Shown here piece after piece: positions 50,154-56,134 of a DNA stretch of 64,000 nt. Within the stretch, counting starts at the first letter, position 1; every line of letters starts with the position of its first letter. The notes below the pieces were generated by a model that did not search any database, had not been told where the DNA came from, and saw only the letters and a program-made list of their open reading frames with translations. Both the position numbers and the translations under genes were made by a program. Origin of the DNA: Bacteroidetes bacterium HGW-Bacteroidetes-7 (GTDB lineage: Bacteria > Bacteroidota > Bacteroidia > Bacteroidales > UBA932). The stretch covers positions 1-64,000 of the forward strand of contig PHDA01000005.1 in the NCBI GenBank assembly GCA_002842465.1. Direction: 5' to 3'.

Positions 50154-52916
50154 ATGAATATGATAAAGAAATTATTAATTCTGACTCTTATCTCCTGCAG
50201 TGCTTTTGTACTGAACGCACAGAGTAAGAGTAAGACAACGGATAAAAAAGATACATCAAAAACGGAGAGTGCCGACACTACAAAAAAACTCTCTGCTTAT
50301 GAAAAGCTTTTTGACAAAAAGAAAAATGTTACCACTTCTGTGGGAATTATTACCCTTCATAATGTAGAGGGGAAGGTTTACTTTGAATTTCCATTAAACC
50401 TTATCGGCAGAAGTTTTCTGATGAGCTCTTTGGTTGATAATGTGAGTGATATGAGCCTGAGTTACGCGGGTCAAAGACCTTCGAGACCTTCTCATATCAA
50501 TTTTTCAAAAACAGACTCTCTTGTTCAGGTAAGGCTCGTGCCGATTCCTAAAATTGTTGACTCTGATGATGCGGGAATTCAGGAGGCTGTGGACAGAAGT
50601 TCATTGCCATCAGTTATAAACTCAGTACCCATTTTGGCTTACAATAAAGATAGCAGCGCAATTGTTTTTGATGTTACCTCTTTCTTTGTGTCCGGTGCTA
50701 AGCATATAGGAACTCTTAACGCCTCCTCTTTTGGTGGTTTTATTCAAAAGGTTGCTACTTTCAGCAAAGAGCTTTCGGCTCTTAACTATGTCGAAGCCTA
50801 TGATGATAACATATCTGTTGTAAGCAACATGACCTACACTTTCAAAACCTTCTTTCTTGGAATGGAATCCGGAGGTTCGGAGTACCTTACAGTAGAGATG
50901 AGGACAACTTTAAGCTTGCTGCCGGAGGAGAAATTCAGACACCGTTATGCTGATTACAGAATTGGTACAAGTGTGACTGAATTTGAAAAAATTGACAGCA
51001 AGGAGCAGGGGACAAAACTTAGCTATCTCTCCAACAGGTGGAGACTTGAACCAAAGGATGCTGAGGCTCATCGCTCAGGTAAATTGAGTGAGCCAATAAA
51101 ACCAATAGTATTCTATGTTGATACTCTGTTTATTCCTTCGTGGAGAGAGGCTATTAAAAAGGGTCTGCTAAAATGGAATGAATCTTTTGAAAAGATTGGT
51201 TTTAAGGATGTAATCAGGGTATACGATTACCCTTCGAAAAGTGAGGATCCTAAGTTTAGTGCCGGTAATGCTTCTTATAACTGTGTTAAATATGCGCAGA
51301 CTCCATCGAGGGGAATTGCCAGGCATATAAATACAGATCCAAGATCGGGTGAAATTCTGAGTGCCTCAATACTTTTCTTCAGAGACTCTCCGGTTACTCT
51401 TCAAAGGGAGAGAATTTACCAGACAGCCGCAGTTGAGCCGGGAGTGAGAGGTTATGAGCTTCCTGATGATCTGATGGCAAATTCAATTGAGTTGGCTATG
51501 ATGAGGGAGATGGGCTATTGCCTTGGTCTCACCACCAACCTTGCTGCATCTTCATGGATGCCTGTTGACTCTCTCCGATCTGCAACTTTTACTCAAAAAG
51601 AGGGAATTACCTCTTCCGTTATGGATCAAATCAGGTACAACTACATTGCTCAGCCTGGCGATATTGAAAAGGGTGTTAAGCTAACTGCAGATAAACCTGG
51701 TGTTTATGACCACTATGCAATTGAGTGGCTCTACAAACCAAACTATGCTGCAAAGACGCCTGCTCAGGAGGTTGCTTCTCTTAGAGAACTTATCTCTTCA
51801 AAGATTGATGATCCTCGCTTTTACTATGGCAGAGAGCAGAACTGGAGCGCATATTTTGACCCGCGATCTTTGGTTGAAGACCTTGGAAACGACAAAATCA
51901 AGGCTGCTCAGTATGGGATCAATACTCTCCAATATGTAAGTGAGAATGCTACAAAATGGGTTAATAAAAATGAAGCTGACGAATCTTACAGAGAGCTCTT
52001 TATCGATTTTATTTTCCTTAAACTATACGACTATTACAGAAGTCTTATGGTAAACATAGGCGGAATAGAGATTAACAGCAAATATGAGGGAGATCCTGCA
52101 CCTACGTTTGTTCCGGTTGATAAGAGAATTCAGAGGGAGAGTCTTTTATATATGCTCAACCAGGCTGATGACCTTACCTGGGCCGACAACAAAGATCTGC
52201 TTATGATGTCCGGTATGAACCCATCTTTCTCAAAATATCTCTCTAACAGCCTTGCAAGATTACCATTCCAGAGAATTTCGATGGTTGCTTTTGCTCAGAC
52301 AAAATCTGCCGACGCATACACAGTTGATGAGATGCTTACTGACCTTTCTGAGTTTGCTTTTAAAAATATTAGCAAAGGTTTGGACCCATCTGAAGCTCAA
52401 AGGGCAACGCTCATATCCTTAACACAAGTTTTGCTTGGAGGCTCTAATCTGCCAAACGTTATCACAGCCAGGGCCAAGAATAGAGCGGCATTCCAGTTTG
52501 CTGACATTCAGCTTGCAGCAGAGGATAACTACATGTCTTACGAAAATATTAGGGCACGTTGTTTCCCTGACGAGGTGATGATTGATCATTCAGGCGATTT
52601 GAACAATTCCTTAATGTTCGATTTGAGCGACGACTCTAAATCTGGATATAACATGATCTCAGGATTTGGGTTCAACAACCTAATGGGAAATGGCTTAAAC
52701 GGTTCATCGGATAACGGGTTTGAACGATCAAATTTTCAACCACTTGTCTCGATAAAATATTTGACCGATCAAAACCTCGCTCCGCTATACTACAAGCACC
52801 TTTTAGAGCTAAGATCGAAACTTAAATCCTACAGATCAAGGGCAAAATCTCAAGAGTCAAAAAACAAGATTGACTACCTTATTTTGTCAATAGATAAAGG
52901 GTTGGGCAAGAACTAG
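50154..52916 (+). CDS. DUF5117 metalloprotease paralogue lacking the zinc site
   Basis: A 920-residue paralogue of the preceding protease with the same layout (SAYEKLFDKKKNVTTSVGII, YIAQPGDIEKGVKLT and so on). At the zinc motif the sequence is REMGYCLGLTTN (R451, E452, Y455, T461) where the active copy has HEVGHCLGFMHN. All three ligand histidines are lost while the glutamate, the CLG core and the Met-turn (SVMDQIRYNY) are kept. The reading frame is intact and long, so it is a maintained pseudoenzyme, perhaps a binding or chaperone partner of the active copy. Last long gene of the operon. Confidence 0.88.
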   Translation: MNMIKKLLILTLISCSAFVLNAQSKSKTTDKKDTSKTESADTTKKLSAYEKLFDKKKNVTTSVGIITLHNVEGKVYFEFPLNLIGRSFLMSSLVDNVSDMSLSYAGQRPSRPSHINFSKTDSLVQVRLVPIPKIVDSDDAGIQEAVDRSSLPSVINSVPILAYNKDSSAIVFDVTSFFVSGAKHIGTLNASSFGGFIQKVATFSKELSALNYVEAYDDNISVVSNMTYTFKTFFLGMESGGSEYLTVEMRTTLSLLPEEKFRHRYADYRIGTSVTEFEKIDSKEQGTKLSYLSNRWRLEPKDAEAHRSGKLSEPIKPIVFYVDTLFIPSWREAIKKGLLKWNESFEKIGFKDVIRVYDYPSKSEDPKFSAGNASYNCVKYAQTPSRGIARHINTDPRSGEILSASILFFRDSPVTLQRERIYQTAAVEPGVRGYELPDDLMANSIELAMMREMGYCLGLTTNLAASSWMPVDSLRSATFTQKEGITSSVMDQIRYNYIAQPGDIEKGVKLTADKPGVYDHYAIEWLYKPNYAAKTPAQEVASLRELISSKIDDPRFYYGREQNWSAYFDPRSLVEDLGNDKIKAAQYGINTLQYVSENATKWVNKNEADESYRELFIDFIFLKLYDYYRSLMVNIGGIEINSKYEGDPAPTFVPVDKRIQRESLLYMLNQADDLTWADNKDLLMMSGMNPSFSKYLSNSLARLPFQRISMVAFAQTKSADAYTVDEMLTDLSEFAFKNISKGLDPSEAQRATLISLTQVLLGGSNLPNVITARAKNRAAFQFADIQLAAEDNYMSYENIRARCFPDEVMIDHSGDLNNSLMFDLSDDSKSGYNMISGFGFNNLMGNGLNGSSDNGFERSNFQPLVSIKYLTDQNLAPLYYKHLLELRSKLKSYRSRAKSQESKNKIDYLILSIDKGLGKN

Positions 52917-52935
52917 AACTCAAAAGGAGCTATTA

Positions 52936-53067
52936 ATGAAAATATTAAAGGAATATATTACAATAATAATTCAATTGAATAAAAGGTTATTAGATAATCA
53001 GCAAAAAGCAGGTATCATGATGTTTGCGGAATATTCATGGTTCTTTAGGATGGAACTGGAAACTTAA
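52936..53067 (+). CDS. Possible 43-residue small ORF after the protease pair
   Basis: ATG 52936 is preceded by AGGAG with 6-base spacing, one of the better ribosome binding sites in the window, 19 bp after the protease stop and upstream of the operon terminator. The product starts MKILKEYITIIIQLNKRL and is aromatic at its end. No domain is recognised. It may be a leader or tail peptide, or chance. Confidence 0.35.
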   Translation: MKILKEYITIIIQLNKRLLDNQQKAGIMMFAEYSWFFRMELET

Positions 53068-53132
53068 GTTTTGGTTAGTATTTAAGTGTGTGCTCTTTTA
53101 GTTAGGGGAGCTCAAATATCTGCCGCTGATTT

Positions 53133-53162
53133 AAAGGGATCTCAAACGAGGTCCCTTTTTTT
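53133..53162 (+). terminator. Intrinsic terminator of the protease operon
   Basis: A stem AAAGGGATCTC / GAGGTCCCTTT (one G-U pair) with tetraloop AAAC, followed by a T-run. The same design recurs at 55010-55035 in front of the same repeat. Confidence 0.8.
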
Positions 53163-53163
53163 A

Positions 53164-53185
53164 TCTCCGCGCCAGTTTGTGGTAT
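53164..53185. repeat. Repeat arm, unpaired copy (22 nt identical to 55039-55060)
   Basis: TCTCCGCGCCAGTTTGTGGT plus AT. It directly follows a terminator hairpin, exactly as at 55036-55060. No matching right arm occurs before the next copy at 53401. Confidence 0.85.
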
Positions 53186-53400
53186 ACGCAATCGCCACTT
53201 CTGCAATGGAAAGCTCATTATTCGCAACGCAGTTTTTTTTAACGCTTTTTTCTTTGTGTTTTTCGGGGCTTCCGGAACGCCTCCCTTCGGTCGTTGAACG
53301 GTCCTCAGCCTTTTTCCGAAAAACAATACAGAAAATAAGCTAAAAAACAGATGTTGCTCATAGTTGAGCTTTTCCATTGCATTATTCAATCCCTGCAATA
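53186..53400. other. Gene-free spacer with a nested imperfect inverted repeat
   Basis: It contains GCAATGGAAAGCTC (53203-53216) and its near-complement GAGCTTTTCCATTGC (53366-53380), one base longer. A minus-strand open frame crosses it, but the composition and repeat content argue against a real gene. Nothing else is recognised. Confidence 0.5.
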
Positions 53401-53547
53401 AAATTTCTCCGCGCCAGTTTTGGACAACTTATTGCTATTTAGCGCGTTGCAAATAAGACTTTTTGAAAATTAACACTTTATGGCTAAAGTCTATTTTATA
53501 AGCACTTGTTATTCAGAAACATGTCCAAAACTGGCGCGGAGAAATTT
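53401..53547. repeat. Inverted-repeat element, 25-bp perfect arms
   Basis: The left arm is 53401-53425 and the right arm is 53523-53547, exact reverse complements, with core TCTCCGCGCCAGTTTTGG. They bound a 97-bp AT-rich segment. Right-flank sequence is shared with the element at 55036-55167. It may be a MITE-like or intergenic palindromic element; no target-site duplication is obvious. Confidence 0.85.
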
Positions 53548-53563
53548 GCATTGTTGGAATTTT
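53528..53563 (+). repeat. 36-nt direct repeat, left copy bracketing the AT-rich lipoprotein gene
   Basis: Identical in sequence and orientation to 55150-55185. It begins AAACTGGCGCGGAG and ends TTGTTGGAATTTT. It includes most of the right arm and the conserved right flank of the inverted-repeat element. Confidence 0.85.
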
Positions 53564-53577
53564 GTTTGATACATATG

Positions 53578-53684
53578 ATCCCTGGGAATTCTTTCCTTTC
53601 GGCTCATAATCAGCAATTTAACTACATTGCCACAAAATAGCTAAGTGTTACATTATCAGCAAAGAGGAAATAATTCCCAGGGAT
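53578..53684. repeat. Second, unrelated palindromic element (13-bp arms)
   Basis: ATCCCTGGGAATT (53578-53590) and AATTCCCAGGGAT (53672-53684) are perfect reverse complements 81 bp apart, with partial pairing continuing inward. It lies in the leader of the AT-rich lipoprotein gene. Confidence 0.7.
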
Positions 53685-53829
53685 TGATTTGAACTAATTT
53701 TTAATTTATTTAGTAAAATACTTTGGGTTATCATTTAAAGTATTAATTTTATGTCTCTGTAATATATTGGATTACAACCTCCAGGGTATATAATTTTATC
53801 ATTTATTAACATTACTTTATTTTTTTATT

Positions 53830-54975
53830 ATGAAAACTTCTTTTCCAATATTGACTTTGCTTTCAATTTTTATTCTATTAGGTTGTTCAAATAAACCAAT
53901 ATTCAAATCAATTGAAAGAGACTATCAAAAAACATCATTCAACCCAGTTGTCGTTGAAAATGAAATTATTCCAAATTTTATTATTTCAATTACTCCTCAG
54001 AATTACTTAGAAACAGACAGAGAGTCATTTATTTTCTCACAAGCTGATGGTGTTGGTGAAAATGAAAACGTAAGATCGTGGGTTTATAATTTATCGGATA
54101 TTGAAGTTAAGAGTGATAAAAACAAAAGAATTATTCTTAAGATTTTTAATGAAATTGATCAACTTGTTCAGATTGGATTCTTAACTACTGAGATATCAAA
54201 TGCTTTTAAATTAAAGATGATTAATAAAGGCAATATCAGTGATGGGTCAGAAGTTATCTCAATGTTAGATAATTCAGCTGTTTATTCAGACCAATATAAT
54301 CCATATAAAGTAAATAATAGATATTTGAGTGTTTTCAAGGCTTCTTTTACTAATAATTCGGATACTTTAATTAAGTTAGGAATCAATAATTTTCAAGTAA
54401 TAAGTGAAAATGAATTACTAAATCCTCTAAAAACTGAATATTTTGAGAAAGCTTTTGACAGAAATTCAGAAAAGCTTAAAAATATTCTAAGAATGAACTT
54501 ATCCGATGATATTATAATTTTACCAAAACAATCAATTATCAAATATTTTGCTGTACCTACACTTAATCCATCCAATAAAGGGTTGAGTATAAAATTTCTT
54601 TATAACAGTAAAGTTTATAATTATGACTATGACCTTAATATTTTATCATCTAAAGAATCATTTAACTTTATTGGAGTTAAAATTAAAAAACAAAAAGATG
54701 CCATAACAGATATTGTAATTAACCAACAAGGCCGGATTTATTCCCTTACTGACAACATTATTTATGTTCTTGAAAATAAGCAAACAGAACCATTAACCAT
54801 TTATTCAATGAAAGTATCAAATGGATATGCTGAGTATGGTAAAGTAGTCAATATTAGGGCCTATGACTTTCAAAATTCAAATATTATAATACCTACAAGA
54901 TCATTAAATGTGATTAAAAAAAATCCTAATGATATTAAATATCTTGTTCCGCAAAAATCTGTTATTCGTTTGTAA
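53830..54975 (+). CDS. AT-rich hypothetical lipoprotein bracketed by repeats
   Basis: A 381-residue lipoprotein (signal and lipobox LILLGCSNK-like ILLGCSNKP, cysteine about residue 19). No family is recognised. The mature protein is beta-strand-rich, with many asparagine, isoleucine and lysine residues. The gene is visibly more AT-rich than its neighbours, and its codons favour AAT, ATT and TTA. It sits alone between two copies of a 36-nt direct repeat and has its own terminator at 55010-55035, all suggesting acquisition as a unit. The function is unknown. Confidence 0.75.
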   Translation: MKTSFPILTLLSIFILLGCSNKPIFKSIERDYQKTSFNPVVVENEIIPNFIISITPQNYLETDRESFIFSQADGVGENENVRSWVYNLSDIEVKSDKNKRIILKIFNEIDQLVQIGFLTTEISNAFKLKMINKGNISDGSEVISMLDNSAVYSDQYNPYKVNNRYLSVFKASFTNNSDTLIKLGINNFQVISENELLNPLKTEYFEKAFDRNSEKLKNILRMNLSDDIIILPKQSIIKYFAVPTLNPSNKGLSIKFLYNSKVYNYDYDLNILSSKESFNFIGVKIKKQKDAITDIVINQQGRIYSLTDNIIYVLENKQTEPLTIYSMKVSNGYAEYGKVVNIRAYDFQNSNIIIPTRSLNVIKKNPNDIKYLVPQKSVIRL

Positions 54976-55009
54976 TCTTTAAATTTTGTTACATCATTTA
55001 ACCATATTA

Positions 55010-55039
55010 AAAGGGGTCTCAAGCGAGACCCCTTTATTT
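55010..55039 (+). terminator. Intrinsic terminator of the AT-rich lipoprotein gene
   Basis: A perfect 11-bp stem AAAGGGGTCTC / GAGACCCCTTT with loop AAGC, then ATTT. The stem and loop design matches that at 53133-53158, and the same repeat arm follows directly. Confidence 0.78.
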
Positions 55040-55167
55040 CTCCGCGCCAGTTTGTGGTATTTAATTGTAAAACAAGATGTTGAAAATGAGCCAAATTTTA
55101 CAAAATATTCCGCTCTTTTTTATATTGGTTGCAATGAACATGTTACCACAAACTGGCGCGGAGAAAT
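55036..55167. repeat. Inverted-repeat element, 24-bp perfect arms
   Basis: The left arm 55036-55059 and right arm 55144-55167 are exact reverse complements (core TCTCCGCGCCAGTTTGTGG) around 84 bp. It shares its core with 53401-53547 but differs where that copy has TTTTGGAC, with matching changes in both arms. Confidence 0.85.
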
Positions 55168-55185
55168 TTGCATTGTTGGAATTTT
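55150..55185 (+). repeat. 36-nt direct repeat, right copy
   Basis: Identical to 53528-53563; together they define a unit of about 1.6 kb carrying one gene. Confidence 0.85.
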
Positions 55186-55218
55186 ATTTTTTACTTTGCA
55201 AAAAAAAGTGCTTTTCAT

Positions 55219-55827
55219 ATGAAAGAGGAAAAAAAATATATTAAAGATATTGGTGAAATTCGCTCTATGATGGAGCGAAGTTCAAAGTTCCTGTCACTTT
55301 CGGGGTGGGCTGGAATAATGGCAGGTATTTATGCACTTGCAGGTGTTTATGTTGCAGACTTTTATTTTGGATTTAATCCTGATTATATAATTGATTCAGG
55401 TGGGATAGGTTTAAATATTGTGCTTCTGGCAACAGCAATATTGGTACTGGCAATTGTAACTGCGATTTTCCTTTCGTATAAAAGGGCAGATAAAAGATCA
55501 GAAAAGCTGTGGAATTCAACAACCAGACGATTGGTCATAAATATGGCTGTCCCTTTGGTTGCTGGTGGAGTTGTGATCTTGATTCTTGCTGCAAAGGATT
55601 TGACCGGCATTATTGCCCCTTTTTCAATGATATTTTACGGCTTGGCACTTTTTAATGTAAGCGGCATTACAATAAAGGAAATTAAGGGGCTTGGTATAAC
55701 TCAGATTATTCTAGGGCTTGCTGGACTATATTTTGTAGAGTATGGTTTGCTATTGTGGGCTTTAGGATTTGGAGTTGCCCATATTGTGTACGGCATAGTC
55801 ATGTATTTAAAATACGAGAGGGGTTAA
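55219..55827 (+). CDS. Hypothetical inner-membrane protein paired with a winged-helix regulator
   Basis: Start set at ATG 55219 (MKEEKKYIKD); an upstream in-frame codon at 55168 lies in the repeat. The 202-residue protein has a cytoplasmic N-terminal stretch (IGEIRSMMERSSKFLSLSG) and about five membrane helices. It is a recurrent Bacteroidota membrane protein of unknown function found beside a small winged-helix regulator. The next gene starts 1 base after its stop, so the two are coupled and the regulator may report on or control this protein. Confidence 0.75.
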   Translation: MKEEKKYIKDIGEIRSMMERSSKFLSLSGWAGIMAGIYALAGVYVADFYFGFNPDYIIDSGGIGLNIVLLATAILVLAIVTAIFLSYKRADKRSEKLWNSTTRRLVINMAVPLVAGGVVILILAAKDLTGIIAPFSMIFYGLALFNVSGITIKEIKGLGITQIILGLAGLYFVEYGLLLWALGFGVAHIVYGIVMYLKYERG

Positions 55828-55828
55828 A

Positions 55829-56134
55829 GTGAAAACATTTACTGACAGACTACATAAAGCGTTCGAAAGCAGGGTTCGGCTTGGAATCATGTCGGCCCTC
55901 GCCGTGAATGATACACTTGATTTTAACGCGCTTAAGGAGTATCTTGATATAACTGACGGTAATTTGGCAAGTCACATTAAAGCGCTTGAAAAAGAAGAGT
56001 TTATTGGGGTGGAGAAGTCATTTGTTGGCAAGAAGCCAAACACCAGATACTTTATTACAAAAGAGGGGAAGAAAGCATTTAATGCTCATCTTGAGGCGCT
56101 TGAGGTTTTTATTAAATCTGGAAAAGCCCTTTAA
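55829..56134 (+). CDS. Winged-helix transcriptional regulator
   Basis: A 101-residue single-domain DNA-binding protein starting at GTG 55829. The winged-helix pattern is RVRLGIMSALAVNDTLDFNA, LKEYLDITDGNLASHIKALE (recognition helix) and the wing FVGKKPNTRYFITKEGKKAF. It resembles the HTH_34/ArsR-MarR-like regulators of actinobacteria and Bacteroidota. It is cotranscribed with the preceding membrane protein. Confidence 0.85.
   Translation: MKTFTDRLHKAFESRVRLGIMSALAVNDTLDFNALKEYLDITDGNLASHIKALEKEEFIGVEKSFVGKKPNTRYFITKEGKKAFNAHLEALEVFIKSGKAL

Follow-up and report, generated by a model that had tools for sequence, protein, structure and literature searches.

The GC-rich inverted repeats at positions 53133-55185 of the stretch analysed here, 64,000 nt of contig PHDA01000005.1 of Bacteroidetes bacterium HGW-Bacteroidetes-7 (the window), are very probably REPIN-like non-autonomous elements moved by a RAYT-like Y1/HUH transposase that is encoded among them. 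We draw this conclusion because a RAYT gene elsewhere in the genome is bracketed by the elements, because its modelled fold matches the REP-associated transposase 4er8, and because a second arm family of the genus likewise surrounds a RAYT of its own. The system, found in a Bacteroidales bacterium and three close relatives, is of a kind known in other bacteria, with some of the usual marks missing.

Repeats of the window and their genome-wide family

The original prediction counted three left-type and two right-type arms, and all five lie where it placed them: across the whole window, left arms begin at 53165, 53407 and 55040, and right arms end at 53541 and 55163. A 14-nt core with at most two mismatches matches the window five times; 100 shuffles averaged 0.13 matches, and none of them reached five. 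The two complete elements that had been described do carry perfect arms, and the two left arms at 53165 and 55040 are, as proposed, directly preceded by terminator-like hairpins of the same design (24/32 identical to each other). The features of the locus are as follows.

53133..53158, + strand: terminator-like hairpin before the left singlet arm (hairpin scan; counterpart in the relative G014)
53163..55163, no strand: whole block of singlet arm, repeat P, type B element, palindrome Q, ORF, terminator and type A element, absent at the orthologous place in G014
53164..53184, + strand: type A left arm without partner (singlet), directly 3' of a terminator-like hairpin
53401..53547, no strand: complete type B element, 26-bp perfect arms (53401-53426/53522-53547) enclosing a 95-bp interior
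53542..53572, + strand: near-copy (28/31 identical) of 55164-55194, the flank that comes after the type A element
55010..55035, + strand: the other terminator-like hairpin, which precedes the type A element (read by eye; missed by the hairpin scan)
55036..55167, no strand: complete type A element, 24-bp perfect arms (55036-55059/55144-55167) enclosing an 84-bp interior
55083..55120, no strand: type A inner hairpin, AAAA-GAGC ... GCTC-TTTT (from the fold and the type A family hairpin; imperfect in the window copy)

Measured from core to core, the type B element spans 53407-53541 (135 bp; DNA fold z -9.74) and the type A element 55040-55163 (124 bp; z -9.30). In G014 the terminator runs straight into the native flank, and everything from 53163 to 55163 is missing; because this block is composite, containing besides the arms two repeats of other kinds, an ORF, and a second copy of terminator and flank, the gap does not represent a clean single-element empty site. 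The terminators may owe their common design to the intergenic unit having been duplicated locally as a whole, since the 31-nt stretch past both right arms is also duplicated, the native flank being present at the site in G014.

The repeats form a genome-wide family. In the own genome (G000; 42 contigs, 2,393,680 bases) the 14-nt core has 43 exact copies and the pattern read backwards none, and with up to two mismatches the counts are 90 and 3, respectively. The opposite outcome that the original prediction envisaged, in which further copies would be lacking or would lie at random with decayed arms, was seen only in that some arms are decayed; the copies are many and their positions are non-random. 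Counting the core with S at its variable place, four genomes of the genus are carriers (G000 70 arms, G001 74, G014 51 and G015 48), and the other 21 of the 25 same-genus genomes have no arm or one, a single genome having one. Outside the genus, 4 of 93 genomes hold one arm each. When named genomes, possibly without the own genome, were scanned for a type B pattern of 19 nt, 25 of 31 stretches belonged to two assemblies of Bacteroidales, Rikenellaceae bacterium UBA12406 and Bacteroidales bacterium C8_metabat.bin.20.

The own genome, in the stretches fetched, contains 31 complete elements, nine of type A (120-125 bp) and 22 of type B (135-136 bp). Loci from the four carriers gave 83 aligned rows, with one element counted twice, and 79 of these rows are 124-125 or 135-136 bp long. 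Both types have near-invariant inverted arms of ~20 bp around variable interiors of roughly 85-95 bp; type A has the arms CTCCGCGCCAGTTTGTGGTA and an inner stem GAGCCAATTTT/AAAATTGGCTC, and type B the arms CTCCGCGCCA[G/C]TTTTGGACA and an inner AGACTT/AAGTCT. Many small copies with inverted arms could also be expected of MITEs of an ordinary DDE transposon, the arms being its terminal repeats. This origin is very improbable, given the absence by eye of any consistent target duplication around the 31 paired copies of the own genome, a sign that the original prediction had proposed to look for, and given 21 further arms that are unpaired, some of them cut by contig ends or by an IS.

Folded as single-stranded DNA, all five whole elements examined did better than their shuffles (z -5.2 to -10.9), and the four single arms examined did no better than theirs (z -0.34 to 0.37), so that these four arms are not themselves short palindromes as in canonical REPs. 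Inspection of the aligned rows by eye revealed no tag of the GT[AG]G kind, as expected at the foot of the hairpin, that is common to all arms; type A arms contain GTGG, and where a type B arm has C at position 11, GTGG stands on the other strand in a different place. The arms had been thought to co-vary between copies in a way that preserves the palindrome (TGTGG versus TTTGG). The two forms indeed mark two subfamilies, but palindromicity is maintained in part only, position 11 of the type B arm (G or C) being paired in 34 of 58 copies and unpaired in 24. The two sides are close to independent at this position, C-G being seen 23 times with 21 expected by our own arithmetic.

For the covariation analysis, near-identical rows were merged to 20 type A and 54 type B sequences, after one 101-bp element of the A set and one 137-bp row of the B set, which repeated an A element, had been dropped before any counts. 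In the type A fold we counted 15 double-change cells, whereas 500 shuffles of the 20 sequences averaged 4.9 and reached 11 at most; by our own count, 14 of the 15 fall in the inner stem. The fraction of paired positions in this fold is 0.950 against a shuffle maximum of 0.944. For two other measures, extra pair types (24 vs 25) and double-change pairs (7 vs 7), the highest shuffle value was equal or greater. As RNAalifold did not recover the inner stem of type B, we make no claim of covariation there.

A RAYT-like transposase among the elements

A search with the Pfam Y1_Tnp family led to a gene outside the window, at 20764-21591 of contig C34, that lies between two type B elements. Its product of 275 residues matches PF01797 at 31.9 bits (cut-off 23) and carries the motifs NHVH and YILQNP, the latter of the form Y-x-x-x-NP. 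Both sequence and structural model indicate that it is a Y1/HUH transposase of the RAYT (TnpAREP) kind. The AlphaFold2 model has a mean pLDDT of 82.8 and predicted C-terminal helices, and in a fold search of the PDB its top match was 4er8, a REP-associated transposase with its REP hairpin (E 7.5e-6), followed by mostly IS200/IS605 transposases. A sequence-profile search of the PDB gave 0 matches, Pfam gave no HTH match despite the predicted C-terminal helices, and the score against the NCBIfam REP-transposase equivalog NF047646 was 33.8 bits, under its cut-off of 80.

Orthologs of this RAYT are found in G000, G014 and G015 and are 73-79% identical in pairwise alignment. They are flanked by type B elements on both sides in G000 and by type A elements on both sides in G014, and in G015 by type B on one side, the second element being cut by the contig end; the stop codon is separated from the downstream arm by 2 nt in G000 and by 1 nt in G014. 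In G001, which has 74 arms in an assembly that is 89% complete, only a 40% homolog and no ortholog was found, which speaks against this RAYT as the general mover. An ORF that lies there between a type B element and a left arm encodes a UbiX-like flavoprotein and no transposase, and another candidate, the ORF adjoining an IS-like match at locus L053, is fimbrillin-like. The idea that the elements are autonomous transposons was set aside on the order of the arms and the finding of the RAYT.

In the mechanism that we propose, the inverted arms around an interior would fold as one long hairpin in single-stranded DNA, and the RAYT would most likely recognise the folded arms, nick the arm ends via its tyrosine during replication, and copy or move the elements to sites just behind genes. 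That the protein binds and moves the elements, and that they are mobile at all, is suggested by homology and arrangement, and transposition presumably proceeds through single strands. The proposal of a non-autonomous mobile element, one of three made in the original prediction, is therefore the one that has gained good support, from the genome-wide copies, the patchy occurrence in the genus and the RAYT-like gene bracketed by elements.

Related RAYT proteins are encoded in 22 of the 25 genus genomes. Under a strict test of the flanks, in which a palindrome of 95-155 bp with perfect arms of at least 14 bp was counted, 12 of 32 distinct RAYT loci have such a palindrome on at least one side and 20 have none. 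Palindromes on both sides occur at 6 of the 32, against 0/61 and 0/153 other ORFs, the 61 coming from the RAYT and other loci of relatives, where some are presumably neighbours of the same palindromes, and the 153 from loci of the own genome that were selected for carrying elements. A palindrome on one side is no rarity at these other ORFs (12/61 and 19/153). A second arm family, GCCTCAGAGGAAAAGTGTCAA with at most one mismatch, counts 30 arms in G007, 27 in G011, 15 in G023 and 8 in G024, and in each of these four genomes it brackets a RAYT on both sides, that of G023 having an internal stop codon. Arms of this family also occur in G021 (6), G013 (3) and G022 (1). For the family flanking the RAYT of G018, only its own two arms beside the gene were found in the genome. 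Two arm families within one genus, each with its own transposase, constitute natural sets of enzyme and substrate, and the related genomes offer intact, decayed, swapped and absent copies.

Gene ends and the history of element sites

Among the 31 complete elements of the own genome, 25 lie between ORFs, one lies inside an ORF call and five are at the edges of stretches. Twelve of the 25 placed elements are found between convergent genes, which make up 20% of intergenic length (binomial p 0.0015), and in the four genomes pooled the figures are 30 of 60 and 22% (p 1.6e-6); these p-values are overstated, since orthologous elements of different genomes and clustered elements were counted apart. 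Flanking gene 3' ends lie within 0-10 nt in 30 of 81 cases and gene starts in 2 of 39, in a count made on mechanically found, uncurated ORFs of at least 90 aa from stretches chosen for holding elements, so that sites empty in other genomes are under-sampled. The association with terminators that had been predicted thus exists in an indirect form, as a preference for gene 3' ends. Type A is the carrier of a bidirectional terminator-like hairpin: terminator-like copies number 21 of 23 for one strand and 19 of 23 for the opposite one, where shuffles give 28%. For type B, the number is 22 of 58 on either strand, where shuffles give 22%. A reading of the repeats as structured RNA consequently holds in part, namely for type A.

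These observations could alternatively mean that the elements are resident, immobile bidirectional terminators or mRNA 3'-end hairpins kept under selection, in favour of which speak the enrichment between convergent genes, the proximity to gene 3' ends, the terminator-likeness of type A and the excess of double-change cells in its fold, as well as half a type A element that immediately follows a tRNA-Arg (ccg) gene (L034:4170-4326) and whose inner hairpin could serve as the terminator of this tRNA. We nevertheless regard residence as improbable: type B scarcely shares the terminator-likeness, two of the type A covariation measures stay within the shuffle range, the elements are patchy in the genus and decay in place in G001 and G014, and the RAYT bracketed by elements is left unexplained. 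Type A probably ends transcripts in the cell, and if it does, it would show how a selfish repeat can turn into a signal of the gene end.

The history of single sites was followed in the relatives. At G000:C2:71445 an intact type A element corresponds to a decayed one in G001, to a mere remnant past the stop codon in G014 and to a type B element lying further on in G015, and no element was present in the 330 nt read in G016, G018 and G022. Seven distinct orthologous sites with an element in at least two genomes were available, all from loci fetched for their elements, and element sites common to several genomes look old. At two of the seven, the element is of type A in one genome but of type B in a second; at G000:C35:38221 the flanks match up to the element ends, and at the other of these two sites one flank is weak. 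Replacement of one type by the other probably took place by recombination through the common arms. Neither a clean single-element empty site nor a target-site duplication was found at the loci compared, and neither excision nor a new insertion was seen; like the old look of the common sites, this counts against movement by the RAYT.

Recombinase sites were a further possibility raised by the original prediction; they could be invertible segments or integron attC-like sites. At one orthologous site G001 and G014 have the element in opposite orientations, one half being identical to the opposite half at 37/40 positions and to its own at 28/40, and the size of the elements is attC-like. Yet the flip can be seen only half by half, the G001 copy being shortened to 101 bp and scored as 'neither' in the test of the whole interior, and ordinary recombination or replacement would explain it equally well. 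Four of the seven orthologous sites have at least one clearly direct pair, and no attC core was noticed by eye, an inspection upon which the attC idea was dropped; nor was a recombinase noticed beside the elements. Programmed recombinase sites are unsupported and very improbable.

A bolder extension of the RAYT-based scenario can be drawn, although it is unlikely in its entirety. The arms might make each site behind a stop codon an addressable slot, at which whole elements are swapped or flipped in place by the RAYT or by recombination, so that the genome would reassort a set of exchangeable bidirectional terminators among gene ends that stay the same, left arms combining freely with right ones. 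The RAYTs of the genus might then form a branch within Bacteroidales, with many of its lineages each possessing a long-palindrome partner of their own.

The elements also serve as the neighbourhood of an insertion sequence. Each of the eight IS ends found in the own genome (GTGAACCCAAAAAGTTNGAC, at most one mismatch) lies immediately after the half-stem of a type A element, (G)AGCCAA with a few further bases, and at the end of a contig.

Ends of G000 contigs C7, C13, C15, C17, C31, C34, C35 and C37 (loci L207-L214): IS ends

Upstream of these ends, an intact type A arm is present in five cases and a partial arm in one, and none is visible in two. Only the ends of the IS are assembled, and the first codons inside read like orfA of the IS3 family, which points to an IS3-like element.

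Known systems and further repeats of the locus

REPINs together with RAYTs have been described in Pseudomonas fluorescens, and the accessible part of that account (PMC3116915) allows the likeness to be specified: inverted conserved ends, a variable spacer and one long hairpin; singlet arms, clusters and an extragenic location; and a RAYT adjoining its own family. The present elements share with REPINs the inverted ends in one hairpin and the extragenic, genome-repeated occurrence, and a cognate RAYT flanked by the same repeat exists in G000, G014 and G015. They differ from the REPINs of the same part of PMC3116915 in that their arms are not self-folding, that no GT[AG]G tag is common to both types, that they are longer (124-137 bp) and of two length classes, and that their host belongs to Bacteroidales.

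Among published systems, the elements are most similar to the TIRYT/TIR variant. According to the portion of Di Nocera 2013 (PMC3733652) that was available, RAYT-like genes can lie between long TIRs that are unrelated to GTAG repeats, some TIR families are moderately abundant with many members in dimers or clusters, and a GGGGWSAS motif occurs in some TIRs only. A RAYT-like gene between long non-GTAG inverted repeats is what the present case has in common with such a TIRYT or TIRtron; unlike those described in that portion, the present arms are without GGGGWSAS (by eye), and the majority of copies close into a palindrome that contains an inner hairpin. Judged by this portion, it is the nearest published description that we found; a literature search on TIRYT/TIRtron yielded nothing beyond PMC3733652 and PMC6006769, and for RAYT/REPIN combined with Bacteroidetes/Bacteroidales, none of the titles among the matches listed describes such elements.

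In the classification of TnpAY1 transposases, as far as the accessible text of PMC6006769 goes, no REP-like neighbours are reported for subclass 2.1 (RAYT group 1), and subclass 2.6 (RAYT group 5) is mostly from Bacteroidetes, with atypical flanking structures and a longer HuH-Y distance. With the proteins of this text the present RAYT has NHVH and Y-x-x-x-NP in common, and its predicted C-terminal helices may correspond to the HTH-like tail at the C-terminus of TIRYT (subclass 2.1). Its HuH-Y spacing is nearer to that of subclass 2.1, in which it may belong: from H76/H78 to Y133 there are 55-57 residues, against about 58-67 for TIRYT (subclass 2.1), and the distance in subclass 2.6 is longer. 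It departs from subclass 2.1, so far as that text reports, in having flanking repeats. The two arm families bear on how RAYTs without GTAG-type REPs find and spread repeats. ISs that insert specifically into palindromic repeats are also known, IS1397, ISKpn1 and IS621 being named as REP-targeting in the available part of PMC1525189; compared with what is given there, an IS3-like element lies here beside the inner stem of a non-GTAG palindrome.

Several minor observations concern the arms and the surroundings of the elements. Among the ten type B rows of G015, nine have the left arm in the form TTTTGC and nine the right arm in the form TTGAACAAAA (by eye), the copy beside the RAYT has TTTTGT and TTGAACAAAA, and most other type B rows have TTTTGG; these variants hint at a possible co-evolution of the arms with the RAYT. 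Four left arms stand in tandem at 84-bp spacing in G001 (L082:4848-5234), the last of them being part of a complete type B element, and short repeats of the GCCGYAGGCAC kind are strung between clustered elements at L057:4700-5040 and L053:5080-5520 (by eye).

Within the block of the window, the ORF at 53830-54975 encodes 381 aa with a start that looks lipoprotein-like by eye; it has no Pfam family and, among the matches listed, no match in 24 same-genus genomes. A search of Rfam over 52500-56000 gave only two matches to microRNA families (E 0.0084 and 0.16), far under the gathering scores and judged to be chance matches to a palindrome, and none to repeat P. The latter (53192-53383) is ~190 bp long with a GC-rich core, is represented among the matches listed by copies 74-93% identical from 15 or more of the 25 genus genomes, and in the own genome recurs as a 90% copy between two type B elements on contig C22. 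Palindrome Q (53578-53684) reads ATCCCTGGGAATT ... AATTCCCAGGGAT and has related copies in G000, G001, G014 and G015; because its inner GCTCATAATCAGCA resembles the palindromes beside the RAYT of G012, it may represent a further REPIN-like family.
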